Source: Meghimatium bilineatum
Lineage: Eukaryota > Mollusca > Gastropoda > Stylommatophora > Philomycidae
Assembly (NCBI GenBank): GCA_034231615.1
Contig: CM067306.1
Location: 67,673,579-67,737,578, forward strand
DNA length: 64,000 bases
Direction: 5' to 3'
Positions 2,264 through 28,662 of this stretch are shown here, one piece after another (position 1 is the first letter of the stretch; the number at the start of each line of letters is the position of its first letter). The notes beneath the pieces were generated by a model. The model was not told where the DNA came from. It saw only the letters and a program-made list of their open reading frames with translations, and made no database searches. The translations under genes were made by a program, and so were the position numbers.

Positions 2264-2405
2264 CTCATTAGATTTGTCATTAGCATTGACAAAAACGACC
2301 TGCCAGTCTGGAGGTAGAGTATTGCTGTCAACAGCGTAGCCATGGTTCTGCGATGTGATGAAGGCCTCACCACTTAACAGATTCACCACTGGTTGGTTAT
2401 GACCT
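2264..2405 (-). CDS. CPS1: Carbamoyl-phosphate synthase (CPS I/III type), coding exon 8: C-terminal part of the GATase domain
   Basis: This exon encodes [37 protein letters not shown] and ANDKSNE, residues about 316-363 of the protein. It closely follows the glutamine amidotransferase (GATase) domain of vertebrate CPS1 and of CAD, and the LP-x-W-x-x-x-FVN stretch is nearer CPS1. The acceptor AG is at 2406-2407 and the donor GTAAAG begins at 2263. The exon opens with one base that completes the split codon from exon 7 and ends in phase 0. The catalytic His and Glu (FHPE in the family) would be in the next exon, which lies left of this window or is not recognisable here. Confidence 0.93.
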
Positions 2406-2508
2406 CTGTGAATGAAAAGTTGAACCTGCAGGTCAAAGTTCACTGTAAAGCATGTACTAGAAAAGTAATTGTGCTAGATTCAAATAATCAAGCATCATCT
2501 CTATAGTG

Positions 2509-5477
2509 CAGTGGTGGGCAAACTTTTTGTGTAGAGGGCCACATTGAAAATTGTAAAGCTATTAGAGGGCCGCATATAATATTATGTATATTTTTGTTTA
2601 AAATTCTCGGTAAGTAATCAATTAAATATTTTTATTGTAAAGAAAGGTAGTTTTACATAATGTAGATAACTTCTGAAATAAATTACATTTCTAACAGACT
2701 TACACTATAACAGTATATTTTCTAATATGGATAAAAGGTTTTGCAAATATCTTAATAACATTTGAAAAATATTATGTTGCATACAGTTACAATATCGGTT
2801 CATATCAATAGTTTTAATGAAGATTTAAAAAAACACCATACACATACAGTCACAAGAGTTACAACTTTATTGATATTATTAATTTCTAATGAGATGTATG
2901 TAATTGCTTGTAAGATGTTATACTTCCTTTGAAATCTGGAACAAGTTTACTTGTAGAAATTTGCATGACTGCATTTAAGTTGCAATCAGATAATAAAGAC
3001 CTATTCTTAGATTTGTTGATTTTTAAGCAAGAAAATGCCCGTTCACAAATATATGTAGATCCAAATAATGACAAAAATTTAGCTGCAAAGTTTTTCAAGT
3101 TTAGGAATGATTGTTCAGGCGAAGAACAATAGAAATCCAACAAACAGTCAGACTTAAATTTTTCCTTCAGGTAATGATTGGCTTATAATTCAAGCAACTC
3201 CAACTGTATGTGCTCTGTGGCTTTCTTTATCAGCTTCTGCACTGAGAGGAGAACTGATAACATTTAAATGCTGCTCCAAGTTCTTGAAATCTTGGAATCT
3301 TTTTCCAAATTCTTCAACCAATACATCTAACTGAGCTTTGAGTTTTTTACTCATTTCATCAGAAATAGTTTCTTGATTCAGCAAAGGGAAGTGACAAAAC
3401 ATGTTTTCACTTGCTTGTCTGGAAAACAGTGAGAGTTTGGCTTGAAATGATTTTACATGAACATACATTTCATGTGCAAACAAACCATTGCCCTGGAGTT
3501 TAACATTCAGTTCATTTAACTTTTCCATTATTTCAGTGGCAAATATAAAGTCAAGCTTCCACTCTGCATCAACAATGTTAGCATTGAAGTCACATTCTAT
3601 GTCCTTTATCTCTAGAAACATTACTATTTCTTCTCTAAGATCCCACACTCTCCTTAAAACCTTTCAGAGACTCAACCATCGAACTGTACTGTGGTACAGG
3701 ACATCAGAATGTTCAGTTTCTAGATCGTCTAGTAATGATCTGAACTGCCTGTGATTGAGTCCTCTTGATCTGATGAGGTGTATGACACTGACAACTGGGT
3801 CAATAACATGCTTAATTTTTAAAACAGATTTACACAAACTTTCCTGATGAATTACACAGTGAAGTGGCAATATTACATGGTCAGGATATTCTGACCTAAT
3901 CCTATCATTGATCAACTTTATCAGTCCTATATTTTTTCCAGTTAAAGCACAAGCACCAACAGTTGTAATACTGGCCATCTTGTTCCACATTAATCCAGTT
4001 CTTTCAATACAGCTACTAACAGCATTTAATATATCGAGGCCAGTGGCAGTGTCTTTGATCAACTCAACACTCAGTAACTCTTCAAAGAGTTTAAAAGAAT
4101 TGCTTATTCCACATATAAAAACGAATAATTGAGCAGTATCCTGTACATCAGTACTCTCATCCAATGCAAGAGAGTACCACAAAAAATGCTTACTTGCATC
4201 TTGAAATTGAAGGGTCAAATCTTCACTTATCTTTCCACATGTCTGACCACAGTTCTTCTGGATAATGCAATACTGTCAAATTTGTTGTTTTGTTCTGGAC
4301 ACAATGTTTGTTGCATCTAGTAAACATTCCTTAATAAATTCACCATAAGAAAATGGCTTGTTGTATTTCACAATTTTGTGTGACAACACCAAACTGGCCT
4401 CTGTTGCGGCATCTTGAATTGAAGACTGTTTTGTAAACACAGTTTGTTGTTTCTCCAGACTTTTTACCAACTCCATGCATTTTCTTTTGCTTTCTTCAGA
4501 TATTAGATTGTGTCCGAAATTGGGATGTTTTGTCTGGTAATGTCTTTTTAAGTTATATTCTTAAAAAACAGCCACTGATTCATAACACAGCAAGCAAAAA
4601 GATTTGTTGCCAACTTGCATAAAACAATATTTGGTAATCCATTCGTCTTTGAAAACCCGTCTCTCGTCTTCAATCTTACGTTTTTTTAATGCACTCATTA
4701 TAAAAAAATATCTTAAAATGTTGCAAAATTAACTAAACACAAATGTGCTTCCGACAGCACAAATATAATTATTTAGATTTAGAAAACTCGGTTGCAATAT
4801 AAATACGAACTTTATGAATGGAAACAACAAACGTGATGGTTATTAAAACACCGGGAATTCCCCAGGCACTGCGCAGCTTAAATGATTGCAAATTGAGTAT
4901 TTGTGCATTCCATTCATAGGATATGAGGGGGGGAGGAGGTTATTTCTGATGATACATTATTGTTGTAAGGATGTATTATTAATTGTAACAGCTTTTAGCA
5001 ATATTCTATTTTGTATGAAACATCTTTTTAATATAAACTAAACATATACCCTTAAGACATAATGCTTAAAAGTTAAACAAATTTAATTATAATTTGAAAG
5101 GCAATTTTCAATCTTTATAAAATTATATCGTCTGAGTACTTATAATCATTGAGAAACATTCAGCCAATCAAATTACGTCAATTCTAGTATAGTAAATTAC
5201 TAAATATTAAACACTCATATTAAACGTAGTAAAATTTTATTGACAATATATATATATATATCAATATTAATATTTAAATGATGTCAAATTGGGAAAAAAT
5301 ATTGTAAATTTAATATATAAGAAAGTCGAATTAAATTCCAATGGATTTCTGCGTAATATTAATGGGAAAAAAATCAATTGTGACGATCGTTTGTGTATTT
5401 AAAAATGTGCTTGAGGGCTGCAAAATATTCAATGGCGGGCCGCATGCTGCCCGCTGGCCGTAGTTTGCCCACCCCTG
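2509..5477 (-). mobile_element. hAT-family DNA transposon, full length with TSDs
   Basis: The 2969-bp element has imperfect terminal inverted repeats: CAGTGGTGGGCAAACTT at the left and, on the other strand, CAGGGGTGGGCAAACTA at the right. It is flanked by an exact 8-bp duplication ctatagtg (2501-2508 and 5478-5485), the target-site size expected for hAT. The subterminal GGGCCGCAT motifs are also typical of this group. It sits inside the intron between exons 7 and 8 of the carbamoyl-phosphate synthase gene and carries one decayed transposase gene on the minus strand. The intact duplications suggest a moderately young insertion. Confidence 0.95.
2886..4698 (-). pseudogene. hAT transposase pseudogene (ZBED/GTF2IRD2-like)
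   Basis: The start ATG is at 4696-4698, beginning MSALKKRKIEDERRVF. A BED-like zinc finger follows (FCLLCYES then LKRHYQTKH), interrupted by a TAA at codon 46 (4561-4563). Downstream are the RNase H-like catalytic region (SLALDESTDVQDTAQLFVF, LPLHCVIHQESLCKSV, YHSTVRWLS), the helical insert (LNVKLQGNGLFAHEM, HFPLLNQE) and the C-terminal hAT dimerisation block (FGSTYICERAFSCLKINKSK). At least three frame breaks or stops separate these parts. The order and motifs match the GTF2IRD2-like hAT transposases common in animal genomes. It would have cut and pasted the surrounding element. A close relative is at 63623-64000. Confidence 0.9.
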
Positions 5478-5577
5478 CTATAGTGTATTGTTGTAGCTAT
5501 GTACATCAACTCTATAGTGTATTGTTGTAGCTTTACAATTATGTGCATTGTGTGAAGATGTGTAGGCATATGTTGAT

Positions 5578-5880
5578 TTCTGACCTATTTGCAGACACTC
5601 CTCTTCTGCATTCAATCTCACACTCCTGCATATGAACATGATAAGTCTAGAACAGAATACATCATGTCATGGTTTACAGCTTGGCTGTGATACTTGTGTC
5701 GTGACCTGACATATTTGACTTCATCAGCATGTCTTCTGGGTCACTGAACCATCTAGGGAATGGGACAAATAACCCTACACCAACACCTTCTTAGTTGTCT
5801 CTTATGATGTGCATCACAGGCCACAATGTAATATTATTTGCTTCCCATTTGAGCCCCAGTAAAACTTGGAGCAATTTACA
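5578..5880 (-). repeat. Dispersed repeat family A, copy (SINE-like)
   Basis: This is one of about a dozen roughly 300-bp copies in the window. Landmarks on the plus strand are ttcttctgcattcaatctc, tcatggtttacagcttggctgtga, cttctgggtcactgaacca, ctagggaatgggacaa and a tail near tttgcttcccatttgag. Every well-preserved copy has a TTC-rich end next to the ttctcaaactcctg motif. I read that as the GAA tail of the sense strand, so the sense strand is minus here. Confidence 0.65.
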
Positions 5881-5924
5881 GAACCTAATGGTGATATATA
5901 ATTTTGTACATAAATATTCTTTGT

Positions 5925-6070
5925 TCTACATCATAAACACATGTTCGACATTCTACATCATAAATACATGTTCTACATTCTACATCATACATCATAAACA
6001 TATGTTCTACATCCTATTTCACAAGCCCTTGTTCTACATTCTACATTATAAAACCCTTGTTCTACATTCT
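5925..6070. repeat. Degenerate tandem repeat (acattctacatcataaa)
   Basis: Irregular repetition of tgttctacattctacatcataaacaca occurs in the intron just 3' of exon 7. Unit length varies between about 20 and 30 bp. Confidence 0.6.
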
Positions 6071-6109
6071 ATATCACTCTCAAGACCTCATCAGAACTAA
6101 ACAACTAAC

Positions 6110-6213
6110 CTGTTGCCAAGGGGAAGTTTATAGCTGGAGCCTCCAGCAGCAAGAGCAGTCAGCTGGTTTCCCATGCAAATCCCAAAAACTGGCTCAGATC
6201 TGTTCTGTATCAC
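6110..6213 (-). CDS. CPS1: Carbamoyl-phosphate synthase, coding exon 7: GATase nucleophile exon
   Basis: This exon encodes [18 protein letters not shown] followed by [24 protein letters not shown] is the nucleophile elbow of class I glutamine amidotransferases. The Cys is residue 294 of the joined protein, the position at which human CPS1, as I recall it, has Ser294 and has lost glutaminase activity. The M-G-N after it is CPS I/III-like; CAD has L-G-H. The acceptor AG is at 6214-6215 and the donor GTTAGT starts at 6109. The 104-bp exon leaves a split codon completed by exon 8. With Cys present the enzyme should take ammonia from glutamine, as a type III CPS does. Confidence 0.93.
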
Positions 6214-6284
6214 CTGGAAATGTAATTCAATATTAAATTATTTGGAAAATATGTTAGGGGAGATCACTCAAATTGAAAAATCCT

Positions 6285-6510
6285 TTTCTGCGTTGATTCT
6301 CAAACACCTGCTGATCAGCAGGATGTAGTCTGAAGAATGAAATGGTAATGTGTCATGGTGTTCAATTTGAATGTTGCATCTGCACTTGTCCAGACTTTGA
6401 TTTCAGCATGTAGTGTCTGCACTTGTCCAGGCCTTGTATTCAGCATGCAGTGTGTGTACTCATCCTAGTCTGAAACATCTGATTTTTCAGCATGTCCTCT
6501 TGGCCACTAT
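6285..6510 (-). repeat. Dispersed repeat family A, diverged copy
   Basis: Landmarks are tgttgattctcaaacacctgctgatcagcagg, gatgtagtctgaagaatg and, after a local duplication of tctgcacttgtccag, the segment cagcatgtcctcttggccac followed by ggatgaggacaacc. It is more decayed than the copy at 5578-5880. Confidence 0.5.
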
Positions 6511-6699
6511 TGGATGAGGACAACCAACTGTGGTAGCGTGAAAGGTCGCTTATAGTTATATCCAAGCGTAACATACATGAATGTAGATATGAAACAACGT
6601 TGCAACTCTGTAACTCCAAATTCCCATATAGTGAACTTTATTTACCACATTCGTCAAATAAAGAAAAAGCATAATATCAATTCTCAATGAAAATCTGAC

Positions 6700-6900
6700 A
6701 GTCCAATAATTCTGGAATCTATCAACAATAGGTGTATCCAATATTCTGGAATCTTTCTACAAAATACTTGTATCCAATAACCTAGACTCTGTCAACAAAA
6801 TATGTGTATCCAATTTTGCTGGAATCTTTCAACAAGATACGTGTATCCAAATATTCTGGATCTTCAACCAAATAAGCGTATCCAAAAGTATGGATCTATT
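6700..6900. repeat. Minisatellite, about 36-bp unit, 5-6 copies
   Basis: Units begin tgtatccaatattctggaatc and end with caacaaaatac. The copies are diverged. Confidence 0.75.
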
Positions 6901-6956
6901 CTGAAAATACAGAGTCTCCTTCTTCGGGCACCAGTCCGGCGCTGGCCCAATTCAGA

Positions 6957-7148
6957 CTCCCCAGTTCCGAGCACAACCGTGCACCTCAACTCCCAGAGCT
7001 CGAATCCTCTAGTCCCGAGCACAACTGTGTGCTCCGAACTCCAAAACTCAACTGCCCTAGTCCCGAGCACAACTGTGCACTCCGAACTCCCAAATTCAAC
7101 TGCCCAGTCCTGAGCACAACTGTGCGCTCCGAACTCCAACTCCCAACT
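6957..7148. repeat. Minisatellite, 48-bp unit, about 4 copies
   Basis: Units contain gagcacaactgtgcactcc followed by gaactcccaaattcaactg. The array is GC-richer than its surroundings. Both strands read open because 48 is a multiple of three, but I see no gene in it. Bases 7150-7765 after it hold no exon. A short stretch at 7590-7680 resembles one end of family A. Confidence 0.85.
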
Positions 7149-7767
7149 GTAAAAACTGGTCTACCCCAACTAACTAAAAAACTCCTTCCCCCAACTCACC
7201 ACTTTCAACCAATCTCTCTGTTCATTCACATCACAATCACCTTATCCATCCCGATACGTACTTAAAAGTCTGAATCTAATCCGGCGATTTCTCTGTGTTC
7301 TGTTACCGCCGGCAATGTTGACTGCGGTGTACAATTTGGGCGTGTTCGTCCTTTTGTGTTTCAAGTTGCCATTAACATTTTTGGACAGACGGGTAAAGAT
7401 TCATTATATGATATCAATCCCCGTTAATTACTACCCTCTGCTTTCAGTGGTCCTAATGTGTCCCGGTCTGTCCACTTCTCTATTATCCCCAAAAGAATGT
7501 GTGAGACTCTCTACTCTCATATTACGGTACAACTCCCAAGAGGTTGGGAATTCGGACATGGTGATACTATTACACAACTTCATTTTCAAACCCCCTTAAC
7601 TACTTCTTACAACATGCAATATAGGTCATAGTGTTGCTTTTCTTTTCTCCCCTTTCAGACCTAGCAACATGTGTGGAAGGCATGATGATGACCACATCAC
7701 CCCCATTGTACTGCTACTAATAAAAAAATATACAGGCCAACCTATTCCTAAACAAATGTTCAAAATG

Positions 7768-7866
7768 TTTCAAGCATACACCAGCTAACAATCCAAATGT
7801 TACAACCATACACCAGCTAACAATCCAAATGTTACAACCATACACCAGCTAACAATCCAAATGTTG
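7768..7866. repeat. Minisatellite, 32-bp unit, 3 copies
   Basis: The unit containing caaccatacaccagctaaca then atccaaatgtt is repeated three times almost without change. Confidence 0.9.
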
Positions 7867-7915
7867 CACTTTCAATAAATAAATATTAAAATTTACACCT
7901 TTTAAATAAACATTT

Positions 7916-8132
7916 AGTGGAGTGCATGGCTGTGTGGTTAGAACGCTGTTCTCAGACCATTTAGGTCTCAGATTCAGTCCACGGTAGGGACACGATTTTT
8001 TCTTTCGTAGGTACAATCAAAATTCTTCCTGTACATGTCATGGCATCTGCTATGGCAAAGCGGCCTTTATTTCCACAGCCCACAGAAAACCTCCTTGCCC
8101 TCCTTCACAGGAAAACATGCAGTAACGAAAGT
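7916..8132 (+). mobile_element. tRNA-derived SINE, copy 1
   Basis: The element starts agtggagtgcatggctgtg and ends catgcagtaacgaaagt, matching 20569-20776 over its whole length. The head has an A-box-like atggctgtgtggttagaacg and a B-box-like segment, best kept in copy 2 as ggttcaattca. The tail is A-rich. An 11-bp direct repeat aaataaacatt flanks it (7904-7914 and 8145-8155). The neighbouring AT-rich array contains similar words, so this duplication is suggestive only. Confidence 0.82.
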
Positions 8133-8171
8133 TTATTTAAAAAAAAATAAACATTCCAAATAATTATACCT

Positions 8172-8325
8172 TCAAGACCGCTGAAGATGGATATGTTGGG
8201 CCACTGGTGCAAATAAAACAGTGACACAATGCATTTCCATTCTCTGAACTACATCCTACTGGAAATCTAGTAGGACCATTGTTCTTCTACAAGAGAGACC
8301 CAGTGGGAGTTTGAGAATGAACGCT
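8172..8325 (+). repeat. Dispersed repeat family B (SINE-like), copy 1
   Basis: About 155 bp, with tgaagatggatatgttgg, aaataaaacagtgacacaat, ctctgaactacatcctac and the end gagtttgagaatgaacgctg. Three more copies are at 17580, 49742 and 60246. The other copies carry a GAA-triplet tail after gaacgctg, which defines this as the sense strand. Confidence 0.7.
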
Positions 8326-8334
8326 GTAGTAATA

Positions 8335-8840
8335 TGAAACTTCAACAAATAATCATTTGAATTTAAAACCTCAGATAAAAAACATTTCAATTGTTTATAT
8401 CATAAGAAAAATTTTAATTTTACACCTTCGATAAAAACATTTCAATTGTTTACATCATAAGAAAAATTTAAATTTAACACCTCCAATAAAAATATTTCAA
8501 ATGTTTAGTTATTAAAAAAAACCATTTCAATTGAATACCTCTGATAAAAAAATTCAAAATATTTACACCTCCAACAAATAAACATTCAAAATTAGTAAAA
8601 CTCCAACAAATAAATATTTCAAATATTTGTATCTCCACTCACAAACTTCCCAAATTTGTATATCCTAAACGCACAACATTCAAAATATGTACTCATAATC
8701 ATTACAAATATGTAAACTGCACACTAATAAACATTACACATATTTAAATTACACAATAATTCTAAATTTGTAAACCATATACCCACAAACATTACAAATT
8801 TGTAAAATATATATCCACAAACATTTCAAATTTACCAACA
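8335..8840. repeat. AT-rich degenerate tandem repeat, about 50-bp unit
   Basis: The motif acctccgataaaaacatttca followed by attgtttacatcataag recurs with strong divergence up to the exon at 8850. The SINE copy at 7916 and family B copy at 8172 seem to be inserted near its left part, since similar words occur at 7870-7915. Confidence 0.65.
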
Positions 8841-8849
8841 AAACCTTAC

Positions 8850-8978
8850 TTTACGCAGGTTCTTGATAGTGTCTGTAGCTAAGGCAGGATCACCAGGTCC
8901 ATTGGAAATAAATAAACCATCATAAGGCTCTTCTGAGAAATCATAATCCCAGGGGACTACCTTGACCTCTGCCCCTTG
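8850..8978 (-). CDS. CPS1: Carbamoyl-phosphate synthase, coding exon 6: start of GATase domain
   Basis: This exon encodes [33 protein letters not shown] and TDTIKNLRK, residues 239-281. SNGPGDP is the conserved oxyanion-region glycine motif of the GATase domain; CPS1 has GGPGNP and CAD has SNGPGDP. The acceptor AG is at 8979-8980 and the donor GTAAGG starts at 8849. The exon is exactly 43 codons, phase 0 at both ends. The SNGPGDP form, together with the Cys in exon 7, agrees with an active glutaminase site. Confidence 0.93.
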
Positions 8979-9214
8979 CTGAAAAAGCCATCATATGAAT
9001 AATTGAGTAGAAAGGCAACATTGTCAAGACACTGTTTTATATTCTTCTTCTTCTGAGTACAAACATTCATAGATTAACTGGAACATTTATTGAAGTAAGC
9101 ATTCATATAGAACTGTCAAGATCTTTAGAGTTTCCATAGAGTGTTGCTTGTGGCAGTCTAAACATTCTTTTGTCGTCCATCTATACTGAGGTAGATCTAT
9201 TTTGTCATTAAAAT

Positions 9215-9622
9215 GTCAAATTTCAAACATAAAATGTCAATATCTGAACAGAAATGATGTCTTTGAGATGTGGCTAAATAGAAGAATAGGAAGAACTTCA
9301 TGGAAAGAAGAGAAAACAAAGAGGTTCTAACAACATATTGTATGAAGACAGCTAACAACACTTCAGATGAAAAAAGGAATCTAAAGGAAATATAAGATTT
9401 TGAGCATATTAAAAGACATAACTCCTTGTTGAAGACCTTACTTGAGGGTAAATTCGAGGGGAGCTGAGCAAGAAGTAGGAAGAGATACATGTAAGAGAGA
9501 AACATTAAAAGATGGACATATTACAGTCTAGCAGAGTGCACCACCAAAGCAAGAGACAAAGGATGTTGAATGTTCCTTGCAGCTAATCTTCTGTGTGGAG
9601 ATGGTACTCAGTAAGAATGATG
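9215..9622 (+). mobile_element. LINE 3' end fragment (GATG-tailed family)
   Basis: It matches 30353-30755 and 42232-42632: VFEMWLNRRIGRTSWKE, then the signature of tctagcagagtgcaccacc, then caagagacaaaggatgttg and gtggagatggtact. It is 5'-truncated and broken by stops. Its final bases (agtaagaatgatg) run straight into the 34-bp array that starts at 9624. Confidence 0.75.
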
Positions 9623-9623
9623 T

Positions 9624-12585
9624 CTGGACATCTCTAGGGGCAGGATAATGAGACCACTTGGACATCTCTAGGAGCACGATAATGAGACCTCTTGGACATC
9701 CCTGGGAACAAGATAATGAGATCACTTGGACATCTCTGGGAGCAAGATAATGATGGAATTTTAACATCTCTGGGACCAGGATAATGATGGCACTTGAACA
9801 TCTCTGGGAGCAAGATAATTAGGAAACTTGGACATCTCTGGGAGCAAGATAATGAGGAAACTTGGACATCTCTGGTAGCAGGATAATGAGACCACTTGGA
9901 CATCTCTAGGGGCAGGATAATGAGACCACTTGGACATCCCTGGGAGCAAGATAATGAGACCACTTGGACATCCCTGGGAACAAGGTAATGAGACCACTTG
10001 GACATCTCTGGGAGCAAGATAATGAGGAAACTTGGACATCTCTGGGAGCAAGATAATGAGGAAACTTGGACATCTCTGGGAGCAAGATAATTAGGAAACT
10101 TGGACATCTCTGGGAGCAAGATAATGACACCACTTGGACATCTCTGGGAGCAAGATAATGAGACCACTTGGACATCTCTGGGAGCAAGATAATGACACCA
10201 CTTGGACATCTCTGGGAGTAGGATAATGAGGAAACTTGGACATCTCTGGGAACAAGATAATGAGACCACTTGGACATCTCTGGGAACAAGATAATGAGAC
10301 CACTTGGACATCTCTGGGAGCAAGATAATGATGGAATTTTAACATCTCTGGGACCAGGATAATGATGGCACTTGAACATCTCTGGGAGCAAGATAATGAG
10401 GAAACTTGGACATCTCTGGGAGCAAGATAATGAGGAAACTTGGACATCTCTGGGAGCAAGATAATGACACCACTTGGACATCTCTGGGAGTAGGATAATG
10501 AGGAAACTTGGACATCTCTGGGAGCAAGATAATGAGGAAACTTGGACATCTCTGGGAACAAGATAATGACACCACTTGGACATCTCTGGGAACAAGATAA
10601 TGATACCACTTGGACATCTCTGGGAGTAGGTTAATGAGGAAACTTGGACATCTCTGGGAGCAAGATAATGAGATCACTTGGACATCTCTGGGAGCAAGAT
10701 AATGATGGAATTTTAACATCTCTGGGACCAGGATAATGATGGCACTTGAACATCTCTGGGAGCAAGATAATTAGGAAACTTGGACATCTCTGGGAGCAAG
10801 ATAATGAGGAAACTTGGACATCTCTGGTAGCAGGATAATGAGACCACTTGGACATCTCTAGGGGCAGGATAATGAGACCACTTGGACATCCATGGGAGCA
10901 AGATAATGAGACCACTTGGACATCCCTGGGAACAAGGTAATGAGACCACTTGGACATCTCTGGGAACAAGATAATGAGACTACTTGGACATCTCTGGGAG
11001 CAAGATAATGAGGTTACTTGGACATCTCTGGGAGCAAGATAATGAGGAAACTTGGACATCTCTGGGAGCAAGATAATGACACCACTTGGACATCTCTGGG
11101 AGTAGGATAATGAGGAAACTTGGACATCTCTGGGAGCAAGATAATGAGGAAACTTGGACATCTCTGGGAACAAGATAATGACACCACTTGGACATCTCTG
11201 GGAACAAGATAATGAGACCACTTGGACATCTCTGGGAGTAGGATAATGAGGAAACTTGGACATCTCTGGGAGCAAGATAATGAGGAAACTTGGACATCTC
11301 TGGGAACAAGATAATGACACCACTTGGACATCTCTGGGAACAAGATAATGATACCACTTGGACATCTCTGGGAGTAGGATAATGAGGAAACTTGGACATC
11401 TCTGGGAGCAAGATAATTAGGAAACTTGGACATCTCTGGGAGCAAGATAATGATGGAATTTTAACATCTCCGGGACCAGGATAATGATGGCACTTGAACA
11501 TCTCTGGGAGCAAGATAATTAGGAAACTTGGACATCTCTGGGAGCAAGATAATGAGGAAACTTGGACATCTCTGGTAGCAGGATAATGAGACCACTTGGA
11601 CATCTCTAGGGGCAGGATAATGAAACCACTTGGACATCCCTGGGAGCAAGATAATGAGACCACTTGGACATCCCTGGGAACAAGGTAATGAGACCACGTG
11701 GACATCTCTGGGAACAAGATAATGAGACTACTTGGACATCTCTGGGAGCAATATAATGAGGTTACTTGGACATCTCTGGGAGCAAGATAATGAGGAAACT
11801 TGGACATCTCTGGGAGCAAGATAATGACACCACTTGGACATCTCTGGGAGTAGGATAATGAGGAAACTTGGACATCTCTGGGAGCAAGATAATGAGGAAA
11901 CTTGGACATCTCTGGGAACAAGATAATGACACCACTTGGACATCTCTGGGAACAAGATAATGTTACCACTTGGACATCTCTGGGAGTAGGATAATGAGGA
12001 AACTTGGACATCTCTGGGAGCAAGATAATTAGGAAACTTGGACATCTCTGGGAGCAAGATAACGATGGAATTTTAACATCTCTGGGACCAGGATAATGAT
12101 GGCACTTGAACATCTCTGGGAGCAAGATAATTAGGAAACTTGGACATCTCTGGGAGCAAGATAATGAGGAAACTTGGACATCTCTGGTAGCAGGATAATG
12201 AGACCACTTGGACATCTCTAGGGGCAGGATAATGAGACCACTTGGACATCCCTGGGAGCAGGATAATGAGACCACTTGGACATCCCTGGGAACAAGGTAA
12301 TGAGGAAACTTGGACATCTCTGGGAGCAAGATAATGACACCACTTGACATCTCTGGGAACAAGATAATGATACCACTTGGACATCTCTGGGAGTAGGATA
12401 ATGAGGAAACTTGGACATCTCTGGGAGCAAGATAATTAGGAAACTTGGACATCTCTGGGAGCAAGATAATTAGGAAACTTGAACATCTCTGGGAGCAAGA
12501 TAATGAGGCAACTTGAACATCTCTGGGAGCAAGATAATGAGGAAACTTGGACATCCCTGGGAACAAGATAATTAGACCACCTGGA
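9624..12585. repeat. 34-bp minisatellite, about 87 units, with higher-order structure
   Basis: The unit is ggacatctctgggagcaag then ataatgagaccactt. Because 34 is not a multiple of three, each minus-strand frame passes through all three registers of the unit and stays open, which creates spurious overlapping reading frames of up to 584 codons. A variant doublet (gatggaattttaacatctc) recurs at 9752, 10330, 10704, 11452 and 12064. The spacings are 578, 374, 748 and 612 bp, which are exactly 17, 11, 22 and 18 units. The array fills most of the intron between exons 5 and 6. Confidence 0.97.
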
Positions 12586-13484
12586 CCACATCTTTTATAT
12601 TTTTGATGATTGTCGGTACAATCAATCACATTTTCAGTACGATCAATCACATTTTCAGTACAATTAATCAAAGTACAAACTAGAATTCCCCCCCCCCCAC
12701 ACCGTCTCTGAGAGGTGTGAATTTCTTGGGACAAAGCCTCCTACTCAGGATACAATTGCAACAATTGTAATAATTGCAATAATTGCAAAACTTATTATAA
12801 TAAGACCGTATGATTGATATGTAGATTTAGTCTATCTGTCTATACTGTTAACTAGATTTTTTTGTATCTGTTTGTGGGCTGTAAAATGTGTTTGCGTTCT
12901 TCCTACATATTACTCCAAGGGAGTAAACCTTTAAGATGGTAATATGACACAATATTTTCTGTTATCACACTTTAAAAAAAAAAGTCCTTCACTTCTGTGT
13001 TAATTTTCATGCTTATTACACAAGTTGATGATATGCCTGGATGACATTGCATATTGTTATCTACTCCTAATAACTTGCAAATATGTGGCTTCTGAGGTCA
13101 AAGGTTTAAGATACAAAAATAAATTTCGGCTCAAGATTTTCCTATCTGGCAAACATAATTTCTACTAGGATGGTAACATTAATCATAGAATGGTATCAAT
13201 GGTTTTCTTGAACAATCTTGTAAGTTTCCACTATCTTTTAAGAAGTTTTGTTCAAAGTTCTTAAAAAAGTAGTGGATAAATAATCATTGAATCATAGCCT
13301 GGATTTAGCAACATTTATAGTCAGTATAGGAGGATAAAATTTACACTGTTCAGTATCATTATCAGTGCATGACTTCAACAGGATATTTATATGATGTTTG
13401 GACCATTAAACAATCTAACTAGCCACTGTGGTGAAGTAATTATGAAACTTGCCCACTGACCCACATAATCCAAGTTTCTTCATC
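12586..13484. other. Intron sequence without recognised features
   Basis: Near the array end there are three short repeats of cagtacaatcaatcacattt and a nine-base C run near 12690. The rest is AT-rich intron with no coding or mobile signature that I can recognise. Confidence 0.6.
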
Positions 13485-14003: not shown

Positions 14004-14093
14004 CCTGACAAGATGTCTGATCATATTTTCTTTGATACCACAATCCAAAGCTATCACTTTGATACGGTTTCCTTTTCCAAAATATTTAATTTC
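14004..14093 (-). CDS. CPS1: Carbamoyl-phosphate synthase, coding exon 5: linker to GATase domain
   Basis: This exon encodes EIKYFGKGNRIKVIALDCG and IKENMIRHLVR, residues 209-238. It corresponds to the CPS1 stretch with YGKGN, then VxAVDCGIKNNxIRxLVKRG. The DCGIK motif opens the GATase fold. The acceptor AG is at 14094-14095 and the donor GTAAGT starts at 14003. The exon is exactly 30 codons, phase 0 at both ends. Confidence 0.93.
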
Positions 14094-18073: not shown

Positions 18074-18313
18074 TTTTGTAGAGACTTCTTGGATGAGGTT
18101 TCTGAGATTAGGGTCTTGGAAATCAATGGGAGAGTCATCAAACTCAATCTTTCCAAGCACTGTACCTTCATCTCGGACAATCTTTGTAATCATGCGAGTA
18201 TCAATGCCATATAAAGCAGGAATGCCATCTTCTTGTAGCCACTGAGACAAGGTCTTGACAGAATTCCAGTGGCTTGGTTTATGGCAGTAATCTTGAACAA
18301 GAAGACCAGATAC
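18074..18313 (-). CDS. CPS1: Carbamoyl-phosphate synthase, coding exon 4: small-subunit domain
   Basis: This 80-codon exon encodes [55 protein letters not shown] and LIQEVSTK, residues 129-208. It tracks CPS1 closely: [41 protein letters not shown] and AEVSTK. CAD differs in this region (LREQGSLLGKL), so CPS I/III is the better assignment. The acceptor AG is at 18314-18315 and the donor GTAAGT starts at 18073. Both ends are phase 0. This is the part of the protein that corresponds to the N-terminal interaction domain of bacterial CarA. Confidence 0.96.
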
Positions 18314-18541: not shown

Positions 18542-18547
18542 CTGGAC

Positions 18548-19745: not shown

Positions 19746-19774
19746 TTGATGATCAATAACAATTTACAAATATT

Positions 19775-20160: not shown

Positions 20161-20568
20161 TTATTATTCTTTGCTGCTACAGCACACATATATTTGTGTT
20201 CTGTAAAAAACCTGCATTCTTGTTGTACTATTTCAATAGGTAGGAACAGAGAAAATAATAGATTGTACAGTTCACAATAAAATGAAAATTCTTGTTTCAA
20301 CCAAATGAGCTTTATCAAGAAACAATAGAAGACAAACTGACAACACTAAATTAAACTAGCATTGCAAAGTCAAATACTCTATGTTAGGGATGTGCAGGAA
20401 GGGATTTTTTTAGCTGTCTGCATTGCAAAGAAACTGCACTAAAGAATAGTAACAACAATCATGGATACTATAACATTTTTATACAGTACACATGAAAGAC
20501 TATTAAATAGAAAACAAGTGTAGGGATGAGAATGAAACAAAAAAGCTATTTGATATTTAACCATGTTA

Positions 20569-20776
20569 AGTGGAGCGCATGGCCGTGGGTTAGAACACCA
20601 TTCACAGACCCTTGTGGTCCCAGGTTCAATTCACGGTTGGGACAGGATTTTTTTCTTTTGGAGGTACAATCAAAATCCTTCTTGTACAGGTCGCGGCGTC
20701 TACTATGACAAAGCGGTCTTTATTTCCACAACCCATAGAAAGACCCCCACACAGGAAAACATGCAGTAACGAAAGT
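20569..20776 (+). mobile_element. tRNA-derived SINE, copy 2
   Basis: Starts agtggagcgcatggccgtg. The B box is ggttcaattca, and the A-box region is atggccgtgggttagaaca. The body contains ttgtacaggtcgcggcgtct, caaagcggtctttatttcc and the end catgcagtaacgaaagt. Sequence left of it (ccatgttaag) and right of it (gttaagtggacatcc) together rebuild one unit of the adjoining 49-bp array. The SINE therefore landed in the first array unit, with a short duplication of gtta or gttaagtgg. Confidence 0.85.
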
Positions 20777-21700
20777 GTTAAGTGGACATCCTTTAACAAT
20801 ACAAGCTAGCATAAGAATTGTACATGTAAAGCAGACATCCTTTGACAATACAAGCTAGCATAAAAATTGTCCATGTAAAGCAGGCATCCTTTGACAATAC
20901 AGGCTAGCATAAGAATTGTCCATGTAAAGCGGACATCCTTTGACAATACAAGCTAGCATAAGAATTGTCCATGTAAAGCAGGCATTCTTTGACAATACAA
21001 GCTAGCATAAGAATTGTCCATGTAAAGCAGGCATCCTTTGACAATACAAACTAGCATAAGAATTGTCCATGTAAAGCAGGCATCCTTTGACAATACAAGC
21101 TAGCATAAGAATTGTCCATGTAAAGCAGGCATCCTTTGACAATACAAACTAGCATAAGAATTGTCCAAGTAAAGCAGGCATCCTTTAACAATACAAGCTA
21201 GCATAAGAATTGTCCATGTAAAGCAGGCATCCTTTGACAATACAAACTAGCATAAGAATTGTCCATGTAAAGCAGGCATCCTTTAACAATACAAGCTAGC
21301 ATAAGAATTGTCCATGTAAAGCAGGCATCCTTTGACAATACAAGCTAGCATAAGAATTGTCCATGTAAAGCAGGCATCCTTTGACAATACAAACTAGCAT
21401 AAGAATTGTCCATGTAAAGCAGGCATCCTTTGACAATACAAACTAGCATAAGAATTGTCCATGTAAAGCAGGCATCCTTTGACAATACAAGCTAGCATAA
21501 GAATTGTCCATGTAAAGCAGGCATCCTTTGACAATACAAGCTAGCATAAGAATTGTCCATGTAAAGCAGGCATCCTTTAACAATACAAGCTAGCATAAGA
21601 ATTGTCCATGTAAAGCAGGCATCCTTTAACAATACAAGCTAGCATAAGAATTGTCCATGTAAAGCAGGCATCCTTTAACAATACAAGCTAGCATAGCATT
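20777..21700. repeat. Minisatellite, 49-bp unit, about 18-19 copies
   Basis: The unit is gtccatgtaaagcaggcat, ccttt(g/a)acaatacaa, gctagcataagaatt. Units are more than 95% alike by eye. The array ends only 20 bases from the 5' splice site of exon 3, so the donor GTATGG is closely followed by satellite. Confidence 0.96.
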
Positions 21701-21719
21701 ACCAATATTAAATCCATAC

Positions 21720-21864
21720 CTGAATTCTATCAGACTCCACATTTGTCAAGAGTCCATATTCATCTTTCTCTGTAGTGCTAGGCACACCATAGTTCCCAAT
21801 AATTGGGTATGTCAAGGTCAGAATTTGACCTCTGTAGCTAGGATCTGTCAATGCTTCGGGGTAG
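21720..21864 (-). CDS. CPS1: Carbamoyl-phosphate synthase, coding exon 3
   Basis: This exon encodes [39 protein letters not shown] and TNVESDRIQ, residues 81-128. It matches the family block GYPEAxTDPxYxGQILxxxxPxIGNxG. The acceptor AG is at 21865-21866 and the donor GTATGG starts at 21719. It opens with one base completing a Gly codon from exon 2 and ends in phase 0. Confidence 0.95.
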
Positions 21865-21967
21865 CTGCAAAAAAATACAAAGAGTTACCTGTACTGACAA
21901 AAACAATGGAACAAATAATCAATGAGAGATGGCTAGTCTTCTGCACCAAAGTCATTGGTCATACATG

Positions 21968-22088
21968 TTCATCCACGTTCTTCTGTGTTAATTCTCAAGC
22001 TTCTGATAATTAGCGGGGGATGCAGTGTCCAGAGAATAAAAGGCATTATTATGGTTTATAGTTTGTCTGTGATTTTTGCACTTTTTGG
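21968..22088 (-). repeat. Dispersed repeat family A, partial copy
   Basis: It contains ttcttctgtgttaattctc, gtgtccagagaataaaag and atggtttatagtttgtctgtg, then ends where the 28-bp array starts. Confidence 0.55.
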
Positions 22089-22089
22089 G

Positions 22090-22248
22090 CTGAAATATCT
22101 CATTTATTCATCAATATCTCAGCATTTAGGGTGTACCATCAATATCTCAGCATTTAGGGTGTACCATGAAGATCTCAGCATGTAGGGTGTACCATCAAGA
22201 TCTTAGCATTTAGGGTGTACCATCAATATCTCAGCATCTAGGATGGCT
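22090..22248. repeat. Minisatellite, 28-bp unit, left part
   Basis: The unit tcaatatctcagcatttagg then gtgtacca is repeated about five times. Two or three more units occur at 22668-22730, on the far side of a LINE fragment. Confidence 0.88.
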
Positions 22249-22662
22249 ATTGTCTATTCCCAGGAGGTGGTGTCGTAGCTTCTACACTTGCTATTGATCG
22301 TATGGGTCTGTGGAGCAGATGTAGTCTGTGTTCCAGAGAGCCAGGTGTGTTGCTCTGGTTGAGGTGTAGTCATTTATTCAGGATGGTCTTAATGTTGTCT
22401 ATCCACCTTTTCCTAGATCTGTCCCTGGCTCTGTATCCTGATTCCATCTTGTTATAAACTCTTATGGGAATTGATCGTTCCTCCTCATAAGATGTCCAAA
22501 CCATTTTATATGTTGTTTCTCTATATATTTGATGCATGGTGTGGTACCTATTATCTTTCTGATGTTCTGAATGCGCATTTTGTCAAGTTTGGTGACTCAA
22601 ATAGCATTCCTTAGATATTTCATTTTACAAGTTTATATCTTTCTCTTATGTGTCAATTGCCA
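22249..22662 (-). mobile_element. LINE 3' fragment inserted in the 28-bp array
   Basis: Minus reading gives KMKYLRNAI, VTKLDKMRIQNIRKIIG, CIKYIEKQHIKWFGHLMRR and an RSRKRWIDNI-like end. That is the C-terminal region of an RTE/CR1-like LINE ORF2 with several frame breaks. Array units lie on both sides, and taggatg occurs at each junction (left near 22241, right near 22661), a possible target duplication. Confidence 0.75.
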
Positions 22663-22667
22663 TATAG

Positions 22668-22730
22668 GATGTTCCAACAACATCTCAGCATCTAAGATGC
22701 ATCAACAAGATCTCAGCATCTAGGATGTGA
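22668..22730. repeat. Minisatellite, 28-bp unit, right part
   Basis: The units caacaagatctcagcatctag and gatg(c/t) continue the array seen at 22090-22248. Bases 22731-23262 beyond it are intron with nothing I can name except the duplicated splice-donor phrase near 23224. Confidence 0.8.
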
Positions 22731-23262
22731 CGATGATGTTCCTCCTTTGCAAGTGAAGATGAGCATGGCATGAAAAACAATAAATGTGATGAACAAGTAG
22801 AAAAAAACTAAACATTTGTGATTGTCTAATTTGGTTTGTTTGTGAGTTTGTTGTGAGTTCTTCGCCGGACACTATGCCAACCAGCTGCTTACATTTAATG
22901 AAGTTAATATTGTTATGCAATAGATTTCTGGCAATGACATGGCAGATTAGCAAAGAAAGGTGCAAGACAAGAACAGCCAGACATCGTAACGACCATGCAC
23001 ATAGTTAAAGAGATGTTGAAATCTGTGAATAAAGAGCTTGGCTGATCAGATGGCCAATAATAATAATAAAAATACTAATAATGATAATAACCCGTTACGG
23101 TCGTCGGGGGTGCCACACTGGAGACATCAGCACAAAAAAGACATCTAAACATCCCTATCCTCAGCATTTGATGAAGTGTAGAAAAATCATGTCCAGACCC
23201 ATTCCTGGATGTTTAGAACTTACCCAACCAAGATGTCAGTATCTAGAACACCTAGGACTTAC

Positions 23263-23372
23263 CCAACAAGACCGGTGTTGAAGACAATCTCACCAGCGGT
23301 GGATACTGGAGTCCCAAATGAAATCCCTGTCATACGCGTGCCATTTTTCAGAATAAGGTGAGCTTTGATTGG
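23263..23372 (-). CDS. CPS1: Carbamoyl-phosphate synthase, coding exon 2
   Basis: This exon encodes [31 protein letters not shown] and NTGLVG, residues 44-80. It matches the start of the mature CPS1 small-subunit domain (HIVLEDGTKMKGYSFG, SSVAGEVVFNTGLGGY). The acceptor AG is at 23373-23374 and the donor GTAAGT starts at 23262. The exon is 110 bp and splits a Gly codon with exon 3. A second copy of the donor phrase (TTGGGTAAGT) lies 39 bp downstream at 23222-23223. Using it would read straight into a TAA, so the upstream donor is the coding one. Confidence 0.95.
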
Positions 23373-23662
23373 CTGAAAATAAATCAAAGTAATTAAGTAT
23401 TTTAAGTAAAGTTAGCCCATAGCATTTAACTGCCATAGGGATGTGAGATAATAGCAATCTCACATTTCAGTGCCTTAGCTATATGAGGGTGGTAGCCATC
23501 TCCTCTCGCAGTCTTTACATTTTCGTGTTTGAATATTTGAAAATGGTTTAGTCATTGTTATTTTTATGTTTCTACGATTCTATGACATCTATGAGGGCTT
23601 TCAGGCAAAGGACGAAACAGTGGTTGTGAAGTGATCGACCAGGAAGATGCATATAACATGAA

Positions 23663-24262
23663 CAGAACAAGATAACAAATACAGAAAACTGGAGATGAAC
23701 AGACCAAAATAACAAATACAGAAAACTGGAGATGAACAGACCAAAATAACAAATATAGAAAACTGGAGATGAACAGACCAAGATTACAAATACAGAAAAC
23801 TGGAGATGAACAGACCGAAATAACAAATACAGAAAACTGGAGATGAACAGACCGAAATAACAAATACAGAAAACTGGAGATGAACAGACCAAGATTACAA
23901 ATACAGAAAACTGGAGATGAACAGACCAAGATTACAAATACAGAAAACTGGAGATGAACAGACCAAGATTACAAATACAGAAAACTGGAGATGAACAGAC
24001 CGAAATAACAAATACAGAAAACTGGAGATGAACAGACCAAGATTACAAATACAGAAAACTGGAGATGAACAGACCGAAATAACAAATACAGAAAACTGGA
24101 GATGAACAGACCGAAATAACAAATACAGAAAACTGGAGATGAACAGATCGAAATAACAAATACAGAAAACTGGAGATGAACAGATCGAAATAACAAATAC
24201 AGAAAACTGGAGATGAACAGATCGAAATAACAAATACAGAAAACTGGAGATGAACAGATCAA
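23663..24262. repeat. Minisatellite, 37-bp unit, about 16 copies
   Basis: The unit is acaaatacagaaaactggag then atgaacagaccgaaata, with an alternate ending aagatt. The two endings are interspersed, which suggests mixing by unequal exchange. Open minus-strand frames are produced by the 37-bp period and are not genes. Confidence 0.95.
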
Positions 24263-24414
24263 GATCTAGTGAACACATAGCTAGGATATTAAAGATAAAG
24301 TGGCAGAACTTTACTTTCCCAGAATATCTGGTTCCCATGAACTTAGGGTGAGTCAACCTAGGAGCAGTTGAACACTATCATTATATTGACATCATCATCA
24401 TATTGACATCATCA

Positions 24415-26459
24415 TCACATGCCCCAGAATCTGAGAAGCTATTGGTGCCAGAACAAGCTGGGTTTAGAGAGTGTAACAGCACAGAAGACAAAATAACATT
24501 CCCAGATCATAGAAGACGCATTTCAAGAAAATAAAAAAGTTGTCACCCTATGGATAGATCTTCCAAAAACTTTTGACAAGGTCTGGAAAGATGGACCGAT
24601 AATAAAGCTGCAAAGAAAATGAATAGGGGGCAACATGTGCAAGTGGATCCGTTCCTTCTTACACAATAGGAAAGCAAGAGTCACCATGGAAGGATACAAC
24701 AGCAAAAAAGTTCTCCTAAAACATGGAGTTCCTCAAGGCTCAGTATTGTCTCCAACTCTATTTCTTGTCTTCATAAATGATATAATTTGTGAATTGCCAC
24801 AAGGTGTAAGAGCTGCAATGTATGCTGATGACTTGGTGGTGTGGTGTGTAGAAGAACATCTAAAGATCGCCAACAAAAAAATACAAAACGCAGCAGACAA
24901 CATAGCAGCATGGGCAGATAAATGGATGGTAAAGATAAATGCTGAAAAGTCTTCAACAACACTCTTCACACTCTCAAATAAGGACAAAGCAGGAGAGATA
25001 AAACTCGGAAATGTACATATCCAAACAGAAGACGAGCCGGTGTACTTGGGCACTACGCTAGATAAGAGACTGACATGGAGGCCTCACATTGAGAAAATAG
25101 AAGCAAAGGCAAGAAAGAAACTTGCCTTCCTGATGAAATTGGCAGGAACAAACTGGGGGGCCAATGAGGCAACTTTGAAGAAGGTATATACTGGTGCAAT
25201 TAGACCAGTACTAGAATATGGATCAACAGCATGGACTTCAGCAGCCAAATCCCATCTACAACCCTGAACAAGGTACAAAATCAAGCACTTCACCTTATCA
25301 CAGGTGCCATGAAGACCTCTCCCATAAATGAAATGGAAAAAAATTACAGGCATCCCCCCCCCTTACCATACAGGCGAGACACTAAGACCATGGTACATGC
25401 AGAAAAGTACAAGAGCATGCCAGCACATCCAATGAGGGCCAGACACAGTGACCTAGCCAGTGGAAGACTGAAGAGAAGCATTTTATACACCGATCCAAAA
25501 AACTAAACAGAAAATATAAGGATGAACTACCAGACATAACAAGAGAGATATCACCAACACTTTTTCCAGTTCCGTGGGAGCAATACCCAAATCTCACTAT
25601 CAGAACCACCATAAACAACTACCACACTATGATAGAACTGAATAATCTTCAAAAGAAAACAACAGTAGGCAACATGATTGAATATATGTACCACAGAGAA
25701 ACATGGATACAAGTATATACCGACGGATCAGCAACCAGAGCAGTGAAGAATGGAGGTGCTGCGTGTACATAAAATATCCAGAAAAAGAAAATGAATCCAC
25801 ATGCTCACCAACTGGAATATTCTGCTCCAACTACTCTGCAGAAGTAGACTTTAAACATTGCTGCAGAAATAATTAAAACACAACAAGTCAATGCCAGCAG
25901 GTGGTATTTTTACTGATGCTATGTCTGTCCTACAAGCCCTTGACAGCGATAAGCTGCCAGACCTGAAGAAAGCCATAGGAGAAGTGAGCATCCAAAGAAG
26001 GGTAGTACTGCAGTGGATACCATCCCACTGTGGCATACCAGGAAATGAAGAGGCAGACAGACTGGCAAAGGATGGAGCAACACAGGAACAAAAAGACCAA
26101 GAAATCACCTACTAAGAAAAGAAGACCCTCATCAAAGCCATCATGAAAGTCGACCACCCAAAAGACAATTACCACTGTCTCAACAGAGCAGAGCAGGTTA
26201 TTATCTTCCGCCTCAGAACAGGACACAACAGATTAAACAGCCACTTAAATAGACTAAGACTGGTCCCATCACCACTGTGCCTTTGTGGGCAGGCAGCACA
26301 GACCACTGAACATATCCTGCAAGACTGCAGCACACTAAACCAGTTAAGGGAAGAACACTGGCCCACAGAGATGGATATCCACAGAAAGATGTATGGGAGC
26401 ACTGAGGAGCTTTCAAATACAGCAGCATTTATTAAGAAAACAGGACTTGCTGTGTAGAC
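24415..26459 (+). mobile_element. RNase H-bearing LINE, 5'-truncated (I/Jockey-like group)
   Basis: Domains in order are: RT start (PEQAGFRECNSTEDKI near 24440); RT core open from 24635 with VPQGSVLSPTLFLVFIND and YADDLVVW; thumb (EPVYLGTTLDKRLTWRPHI, LEYGSTAW); then, after frame breaks, RNase H (YTDGSA, TDAMSVLQAL, LQWIPSHCGIPGNEEADR); and a C-terminal zinc-finger-like segment (PLCLCGQAAQTTEHILQDC) ending KKTGLAV at 26457. ORF1 and the endonuclease are missing. The RT catalytic box and the zinc-finger Cys/His are intact, but stops and frameshifts between 25267 and 26143 make it dead. Its 3' tail resumes at 27232 (cgaacgagaagaagaag) after another LINE inserted in it. Confidence 0.93.
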
Positions 26460-26471
26460 ATGTCAAACTCC

Positions 26472-27219
26472 TGCAGGTGTATATATAGAAATATCCACAC
26501 AAGCTTAGAGACACAATCAGAACACCAACAGGAAAATTCTGCAATAATTATGATGCAGAAATCCAGGCAATTAGTGTGGCAGCTAAAAAACTGCTGAACT
26601 CCAACTCTGACCTACAGCCTGTGGTATTCCTGACAGATGCAAGGTCAGTGCTTCAAGCTCTCCAGTCTGGAAAACTAACAGACTTGAAAAAACTACTTAG
26701 CGAATTGTCTTACCAGTATAGGGTAACCATGCAGTGGATACCCTCTCACTGTGGAATACTAGGAAATGAAAAAGCATACCAACTGGCTAAGGAAGGTGCT
26801 GCCGAAGACCAACCAGATATTCCAATCACCTACCATCAGAAAAAACAGATGATCAAGTCAATAAGAAAGCCACAAACACCAACACAAGATGACTATCACA
26901 TTATGAACAGATCAGAACAAGTTATAATTCTACGTCTCAGAACAGGACACAATCAACTCCGCAGTCACATGTATACAAAGTTCAAGATTGGCAACACGGC
27001 CATGTGTACATGTGGACAGGCAGCACAGAGTGCCAAACATATACTTCAAGAGTGTTCTGAGCATGAAACGCTGAGGCAGACATATTGGCCAGAGGAAACA
27101 ACACTGGAATCAAAGCTCTATGGGACACTGTATGAACTACAAAAGACAGTGAGTTTTATTAAGGAGACAGAATTACAGATATAGACATGTTTCAAGTGAA
27201 CGAAAGAAGAAGAAGAAAA
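26472..27219 (+). mobile_element. Second RNase H LINE, nested in the 3' tail of the first
   Basis: The 748-bp insert is flanked by an exact 12-bp duplication atgtcaaactcc (26460-26471 and 27220-27231). It carries one long open frame, 26576-27184: FLTDARSVLQALQSGKLTD, VTMQWIPSHCGILGNEKAY, EQVIILRLRTGHNQLRSHM and AMCTCGQAAQSAKHILQEC, ending KETELQI. The 3' end is gaacgaaagaagaagaagaaa. It is 5'-truncated within RNase H, as expected of target-primed reverse transcription. It is related to but clearly diverged from its host LINE. Confidence 0.95.
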
Positions 27220-27249
27220 ATGTCAAACTCCGAACGAGAAGAAGAAGAT

Positions 27250-27600
27250 CATCATATGCACACCAGAAACATATGCACACCATCATTATATGCACACCAG
27301 AATCATATGCACACCAGAATCATATGCACACCAGAAGAATATGTACACCATCATCATATGCACATCATCATCATGTGCACACCAGAAGCATATGCACACC
27401 AGAAGCATATGCACACCAGAAGCATATGCACACCATCATCATGTGCACAACAGAAGCATATGCACACCAGAAGCATATGCACACCAGAAGCATATGCACA
27501 CCATCATCATGTGCACACCAGAAGCATATGCACACCAGAAGCATATGCACACCATCATCATGTGCACACCATCATCATATGCACACCAGAATCATACGAT
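27250..27600. repeat. Minisatellite, 17-bp unit (atatgcacaccagaagc), about 20 copies
   Basis: It starts immediately after the GAA tail of the outer LINE. Two unit variants, ccagaagc and ccatcatc, alternate. All three plus frames stay open, an artefact of the period. A decayed continuation (accctagcatcacatgga) runs to about 27765. Confidence 0.93.
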
Positions 27601-27867
27601 ACTAGTATCGCATTGACACCAGTATTATATGGACACAAGCATCACATGAACCCTAGCATCCTATGGACCCTAGCATAACATGAACCCTAGCATCACACGG
27701 ACTCTAGCATCATATAGACCCTACCATCATATGGACAGCGGCATGACATGGACGTCACATGGGAATGAAAGGGAAGTGGTAGAAAATTGGTGCTTCAAGT
27801 TAGAAGAAAATATGAAACAGCCAGAAATACATGGAGAACTCTGGAACAGATTTTGAGAGAGAATAAT

Positions 27868-28375
27868 CACAGTTGGAGTAAAGTGCAGAGACTAACCACA
27901 TTTTGTAGCAAACATCTACAGAGATTAACCACATTCTGTAGCAAATATCTACAGAGAACAATCACGTTTTGTAGCAAACATCTACAGAGGTTAACCCCAA
28001 TTTTAGCAAACATCAACAGAGATTAACCACATTTTTAGCAAACATATACAGAGAACAATCACATTTTGTAGTAAACATCTATAGAGATTAACCACATTTA
28101 TAGCAAACATCTACAGAGATTAACCACATTTTGTAGAAAATATCAACAGAGATTAACCACATTTGTAGCAAACATCTACAGAGAACAATCACATTTTGTA
28201 GCAAAGATCTACAGAGAACTCATATTTTGTAGCAAATATCTACAGAGAACAATCATATTTTGTAGCAAACATCTACAGAGATTAACCACATTTTGTAAAA
28301 CAGATCTACAGAGATTAAACACATTTTGCAGCAAACTTCTACAGAGATTAACCACATTTGCAGCAAACATCTACA
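27868..28375. repeat. Minisatellite, 33-bp unit, about 15 copies
   Basis: The unit is cacattttgtagcaaacatc then tacagagattaac. It lies about 160 bp downstream of the first coding exon's donor site, in intron 1. Confidence 0.93.
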
Positions 28376-28533
28376 TGGATAATGTTTATCAAAAATATGA
28401 AAGGTAATACATAAACAAAAGGAACGAGCTAAGATAAAATGACCATGGAATAAACTGGATTACTGCCCTATGTGTTCGTACAAACAAAGCAACTACAAAT
28501 GACAGAGACATGTGAGCTGACCATCAAGCATAC

Positions 28534-28662
28534 CTTCTTGGATTCAGAAGCTGCTGATCTCTGGCTGATGTACTCATATTTGTTCTTATGGCTAACCAAA
28601 GTTGAACTGACAGCCCTAGCTTTGAGCCTGGAAGAAGTGTTTAACAACCGTAATATCGTCAT
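28534..28662 (-). CDS. CPS1: Carbamoyl-phosphate synthase, coding exon 1: start codon and mitochondrial presequence
   Basis: The ATG at 28660-28662 begins MTILRLLNTSSRLKARAVSS, then TLVSHKNKYEYISQ and RSAASESKK, 43 codons. The first 27 residues are rich in Arg, Lys, Ser and Leu with no acidic residue, a typical mitochondrial targeting peptide. That agrees with CPS I/III being matrix enzymes, unlike cytosolic CAD. The donor GTATGC starts at 28533. The exon ends in phase 0, which fits exon 2, and the joined text [14 protein letters not shown] aligns with the presequence/mature junction of CPS1. Counting from this ATG puts the nucleophile at residue 294, the number I recall for the matching serine of human CPS1, which supports the start choice. 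Confidence 0.9.

Follow-up and report, generated by a model that had tools for sequence, protein, structure and literature searches.

A probable glutamine-using mitochondrial carbamoyl-phosphate synthase gene of the CPS I/III group in the gastropod Meghimatium bilineatum

We analysed a 64,000-nucleotide stretch of the Meghimatium bilineatum genome (contig CM067306.1, here C9; C9:67673579-67737578; hereafter the window) and found that it carries the start of a gene for a single-chain carbamoyl-phosphate synthase (CPS). With a probability of roughly 0.86, the gene encodes an intact mitochondrial enzyme that belongs to the CPS I/III orthologue group and is in the glutamine-using, CPS III-like state. 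An initial annotation of the window had proposed a CPS III-like enzyme, and that proposal is supported: the protein groups with human CPS1, its reading frame ends after the MGS domain, and it retains the glutaminase catalytic triad together with Gln298.

The eight exons described by the initial annotation (window positions 28662 to 2264, minus strand) could be placed as proposed, with compatible phases and 1089 nt encoding 363 residues. An exon reading FHPE, predicted to lie left of the window, was found 1.2 kb away at C9:67672363-67672286. Exons beyond the window were sought in the 100 kb to its left, using tblastn with E. coli CarA/CarB and with stretches of human CPS1 taken from PDB matches, together with reading frames and splice sites. 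The resulting model has 35 coding exons on the minus strand, totalling 4518 nt and 1505 residues with no internal stops, and spans 83,738 bases (83.7 kb) from C9:67702240 to a stop codon at C9:67618503. All 34 introns are of the GT-AG type. Since exon boundaries were chosen among GT-AG sites according to how well the translation matched the human and E. coli sequences, this agreement is a consistency check rather than independent proof. Judged from its reading frame, the 35-exon gene is intact. Its coding exons are as follows (window positions unless marked C9).

28534..28662, minus strand: coding exon 1, residues 1-43, with the start codon and the basic presequence
23263..23372, minus strand: coding exon 2, where the small-chain (S1) domain begins
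21720..21864, minus strand: coding exon 3, small-chain domain with Ser89 (CarA Ser47 position)
18074..18313, minus strand: coding exon 4, which carries the CPS1-type text [20 protein letters not shown]
14004..14093, minus strand: coding exon 5, where the glutaminase domain begins, with Lys229 (CarA Lys202 position)
8850..8978, minus strand: coding exon 6, glutaminase domain with SNGPGDP
6110..6213, minus strand: coding exon 7, where GICMGNQ holds the catalytic Cys294 along with Gln298
2264..2405, minus strand: coding exon 8, SQNHGYAVD
C9:67672363 down to 67618503, minus strand: 27 further coding exons left of the window

We compared the protein with human CPS1, with the CAD encoded on C19 of the same genome, and with E. 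coli CarA/CarB. The N-terminal part matched human CPS1 (PDB 5dot) with a phmmer E-value of 1.1e-132, and human CPS1 came first among the matches listed in all six PDB searches with parts of the protein. As no CAD synthetase chain was among the matches listed, this ranking cannot by itself distinguish CPS I/III from CAD. Identity was 67.5% with human CPS1 (842 of 1247 aligned known residues), 58.7% with the genome's own CAD (731/1245) and 41.6% with E. coli CarA/CarB (590/1419). In a tree of four sequences, none of them a fish or invertebrate CPS III, in which the human row was a composite (1249 of 1489 residues known) and the CAD row was tiled from unspliced tblastn pieces, grouping with human CPS1 was best over 1135 gap-free columns (approximately unbiased (AU) p = 0.976). 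Two-against-two site patterns united the protein with human CPS1 in 44 cases, with CAD in 12 and with E. coli in 15. Groupings with CAD (AU p = 0.0153) and with E. coli CarA/CarB (AU p = 0.0397) were rejected. The initial annotation had set the protein apart from CAD, and the tree agrees, joining it to human CPS1 rather than placing it inside CAD. These alignments support orthology to CPS I and not to CAD. It also resembles human CPS1 (PDB 5dot and 6uel) in length (1505 versus 1500 residues) and in the order of its domains. The domains and glutaminase residues of E. coli CarA/CarB align as well, although the E. coli enzyme consists of two separate chains.

The catalytic triad, identified by alignment to CarA, is Cys294, His378, and Glu380. 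As the initial annotation had read, the cysteine is residue 294 and lies in GICMGNQ on exon 7. Ser89, Lys229, Gly265, and Gly267 match CarA Ser47, Lys202, Gly241, and Gly243, while Gln298, Asn336, and Gly338 match CarA Gln273, Asn311, and Gly313; these CarA positions presumably line its active site. At three such positions, human CPS1 has Ala88, Ser294, and Leu298, where this protein has Ser89, Cys294, and Gln298. Saeed-Kothe and Powers-Lee reportedly described, in 2003, the residue four places after the cysteine (Cys+4) as glutamine-binding, and here that residue is the conserved Gln298. The hallmark of CPS I, loss of the catalytic cysteine or of glutamine-binding residues, was not found, as both Cys294 and Gln298 are present; Met295, at Cys+1, deviates. 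Residues 1-421 matched the NCBIfam model for the glutamine-hydrolysing small chain (TIGR01368) with 439 bits against a cut-off of 307, although this model was built for bacteria and archaea and the match is no proof of activity in this protein.

The initial annotation had taken the cysteine as the mark of CPS III. The residue is present, but on its own it is not diagnostic, as bullfrog CPS I has the full triad and yet is unable to use glutamine (PMC4655335, PMC7657897). Bullfrog CPS1 regains glutaminase activity once the Lys at its Thr295 position is changed to Leu (PMC4655335), and the Cys+1 residue is counted among the glutamine-binding residues next to the cysteine (PMC4655335). In Alcolapia, the triad is kept, one of two glutamine-binding residues is lost, and ammonia is preferred (PMC7657897). 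A stronger pointer than the cysteine is the combination of Gln at Cys+4 with Met, rather than the frog's Lys, at Cys+1. At the position of CarA Gly293, which belongs to the ammonia tunnel, this protein has His318. The same His occurs in the genome's own CAD, while Gln318 at this position is said to block the tunnel of human CPS1 (PMC4655335). Since Gln298 is kept, Met is a milder change than Lys, and CAD has His in its tunnel too, glutamine is likely the nitrogen donor.

The N terminus is consistent with import into mitochondria. The basic presequence proposed by the initial annotation is present: residues 1-28 contain six Arg/Lys and no Asp/Glu. By this basic, acid-free criterion, which was set post hoc, none of the 1434 28-mers in the remaining protein resembled residues 1-28. 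The helical amphipathic moment of the N terminus was reached by 290 of 5000 shuffled sequences, which is mildly unusual and lends weak support. The conserved part begins about where that of human CPS1 does, with residue 47 lying opposite residue 46 of 6uel.

At the other end, the frame closes at a stop codon 37 codons past the MGS-domain exon, the last exon being 37 codons long, and the C-terminal 197 residues matched only MGS in Pfam. To the domain counts that follow, the searched genome contributed 1.61 Gb in 32 contigs. CPSase_sm gave three matches, which fall at one locus on C19 and one on C9, and CPSase_L_D3 gave two, at the same C19 and C9 loci, making the gene on C9 the only CPS besides CAD in the CPSase_L_D3 search. 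CPSase_L_D2 gave 21 matches on C4, C9, C12, C14, C19, and C25; since this domain is also found in biotin-dependent carboxylases, it is unhelpful for counting CPS genes. All three dihydroorotase matches (TIGR00857) were on C19, each a single exon below the whole-protein cut-off. The five OTCace_N matches (PF02729) were on C19 (two), C14 (two), and C22 (one), and the six OTCace matches (PF00185) were on C14 and C22 (three each). C9 had none of these 14 matches in genome searches that scored the best exon candidates only. The initial annotation had expected no fused dihydroorotase downstream, and the stop codon after the MGS domain, together with the lack of TIGR00857 and OTCace_N matches on C9, bears this out. 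In separating the gene from CAD, the stop codon is firmer evidence than the missing dihydroorotase and aspartate transcarbamylase (ATCase) matches. To judge from these matches, the animal has a separate CAD gene on C19 to serve pyrimidine synthesis. The C19 CAD resembles this protein in having glutaminase and synthetase domains, the cysteine (in GICLGHQ), and the tunnel His. It differs in having dihydroorotase and ATCase-type matches, whereas the C9 gene ends after MGS and encodes a basic presequence.

The N-acetylglutamate (NAG) contacts of human CPS1 have been listed (PMC4655335), and most are retained. Asp1322, Thr1391, Thr1394, Trp1410, Asn1437, Pro1439, Thr1443, Asn1449, and Arg1453 (human numbering) are kept, at residues 1322, 1393, 1396, 1412, 1437, 1439, 1443, 1449, and 1453 of the protein that begins in the window. 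Thr1394 and Trp1410 were paired by spacing, as the gapped alignment had put a Val at Trp1410. Paired in this way, Ala1393, a backbone contact, corresponds to Arg in this protein. Lys1444 is replaced by Gln and Phe1445 by Tyr. The replacement of Arg1371 by Tyr and of Gln1368 by Lys is the one unexpected detail of the predicted protein. In human CPS1, Arg1371Leu, like two other tested changes, raises the NAG constant by about two orders of magnitude (PMC4655335). Given these two replacements and the effect of human Arg1371Leu, we considered whether the enzyme might be a glutamine-using mitochondrial CPS with an altered NAG switch, responding only weakly to NAG or binding another ligand, and supplying carbamoyl phosphate for arginine and urea largely constitutively. 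This is conceivable but doubtful, and Lys1370 might offset the loss of Arg1371. The Tyr/Lys change offers a concrete way to test how allosteric control of the enzyme differs between animals.

Several points weigh against a glutamine-using enzyme of the CPS I/III group. Efficient glutamine binding is not certain, because Met stands at Cys+1, where both CarA and the genome's own CAD have Leu. The Gly of CarA is not kept at the tunnel position. Two NAG-site residues differ from human CPS1 (Gln1368 to Lys1370, Arg1371 to Tyr1373). The tree lacks CPS III and includes a composite human row and a tiled CAD row. Finally, a missing domain match is weak evidence, since PF00185 also had no match at CAD on C19. 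One alternative is that the same gene product mainly uses free ammonia, as CPS I does; it would have retained the triad but given up either effective glutamine binding or the tunnel, as reported for bullfrog and Alcolapia. A triad can indeed persist without glutamine use or with a preference for ammonia (PMC4655335, PMC7657897), and Met at Cys+1 and His in the tunnel would fit. However, Gln298 is kept, Met is mild relative to the frog's Lys, and the His is also found in the genome's CAD, whose family uses glutamine; we regard this alternative as unlikely.

Other explanations fare worse. That the exons encode the CPS portion of CAD or of a CAD duplicate, a cytosolic CPS II for pyrimidines, could draw on the 58.7% identity to CAD over the aligned part, but the protein is closer to human CPS1, the CAD grouping was rejected (AU p = 0.015), a stop codon lies past the MGS-domain exon, the first 28 residues are acid-free, the three dihydroorotase matches are on C19, and the OTCace_N matches are on C19 (two of five), C14, and C22. 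We give this explanation almost no credence. A decayed or unexpressed copy is only slightly less improbable: tandem arrays are numerous in the introns, and one of them contains copies of a 3′ splice site, but the frame is open through 35 exons, the catalytic residues are kept, and the gene is the only CPS besides CAD found with CPSase_L_D3.

For the glutamine-using mitochondrial enzyme that we favor, the predicted route is as follows. The presequence would carry the enzyme into the mitochondrial matrix, where Cys294, His378, and Glu380 would hydrolyse glutamine. The ammonia released would pass to the first ATP-grasp domain, which would use it with bicarbonate to form carbamate. Phosphorylation of the carbamate to carbamoyl phosphate would follow in the second ATP-grasp domain. 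NAG would act at the C-terminal MGS-type domain. Ornithine transcarbamylase (OTC) would then use the carbamoyl phosphate to make citrulline, leading to arginine and urea.

Matches to partner families show that exons of the NAGS, OTC, ASS, ASL, and arginase families are present in the genome. The NAGS family gave one match, at C9:47.96 Mb, in an exon that we take to be a NAGS-like stretch; in a control, the family had matches in none of 14 genomes, all of them prokaryotes. An OTC exon on C14 contains FLHCLPRK(Q), in which FLHCLP is presumably the OTC motif. ASS gave three matches, on C10, and ASL gave five, on C12, none of them above the whole-protein cut-off. The arginase family gave six matches, on C5, C7, and C8, some of which may be agmatinase-like. 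As the initial annotation had inferred, arginine or urea may be made via this CPS. A second OTC-like gene lies at C22:26927800-26934360, where FLHPLSTHN replaces the FLHCLPRKQ of the C14 copy and the rest of the exon is alike. Because of this replacement, the C22 copy lacks the Cys of FLHCLP, which we take to be the usual ornithine-site Cys.

Since CPS III has been reported from fish and invertebrates (PMC2566978, PMC6022934), the gene is of an expected type, encoding an enzyme of a known kind. It resembles CPS III in being a single chain with a predicted presequence, a Cys-His-Glu triad, Gln at Cys+4, an MGS-type C-terminal domain, and no dihydroorotase or ATCase. It may differ in Met at Cys+1 and in Tyr and Lys at the positions of human Arg1371 and Gln1368, no CPS III sequence having been compared. 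Beyond PMC2566978 and PMC6022934, our searches returned little relevant literature on CPS III in molluscs or snails. To judge by its title, a 2005 study cited in PMC2566978 concerned urea production by the giant African snail, and PMC4378924, on lungfish, added nothing on catalytic residues. The gene for the first urea-cycle enzyme, in an apparently glutamine-using state, is thereby complete and resolved to the base, in a genome that also contains the sister gene CAD and the partner genes. It fits the published view that ammonia-only CPS I is derived from CPS III.

The gene lies among abundant repeats. Just upstream of the start codon (28663-29104) is an acceptor-like site near which a 45-base tandem array (window 28718-29104) ends; because of this site, an untranslated first exon may lie further up. 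A tandem array at C9:67632058-67632930 (intron 29/exon 30 start) consists of upstream repeats of the exon 30 acceptor together with the first ~14 codons of that exon. The pattern used picks out seven acceptor-like copies, of which the nearest lies 58 bases ahead of the true acceptor. The frame stops right after ...PFI in five of the seven copies and later in one, while in the remaining copy there is no stop within 28 codons. As most run into a stop soon after, these copies look like decoy acceptors. The whole window (1-64000) is dense in minisatellites, with 67 Tandem Repeats Finder rows at a score of at least 150, some of them representing the same array. Examples are a 34-base unit in 87 copies at window 9625-12586 and a 49-base unit in 18.6 copies at 20787-21695, an array that comes within 25 bases of exon 3. 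A weak reverse transcriptase trace, below the family cut-off, lies at window 1281-1658 on the minus strand. Among 20 open frames scanned, those in intron 1 on the plus strand at window 24623-27181 matched reverse transcriptase and RNase H and, from these matches, appear to be a retrotransposon remnant or copy.

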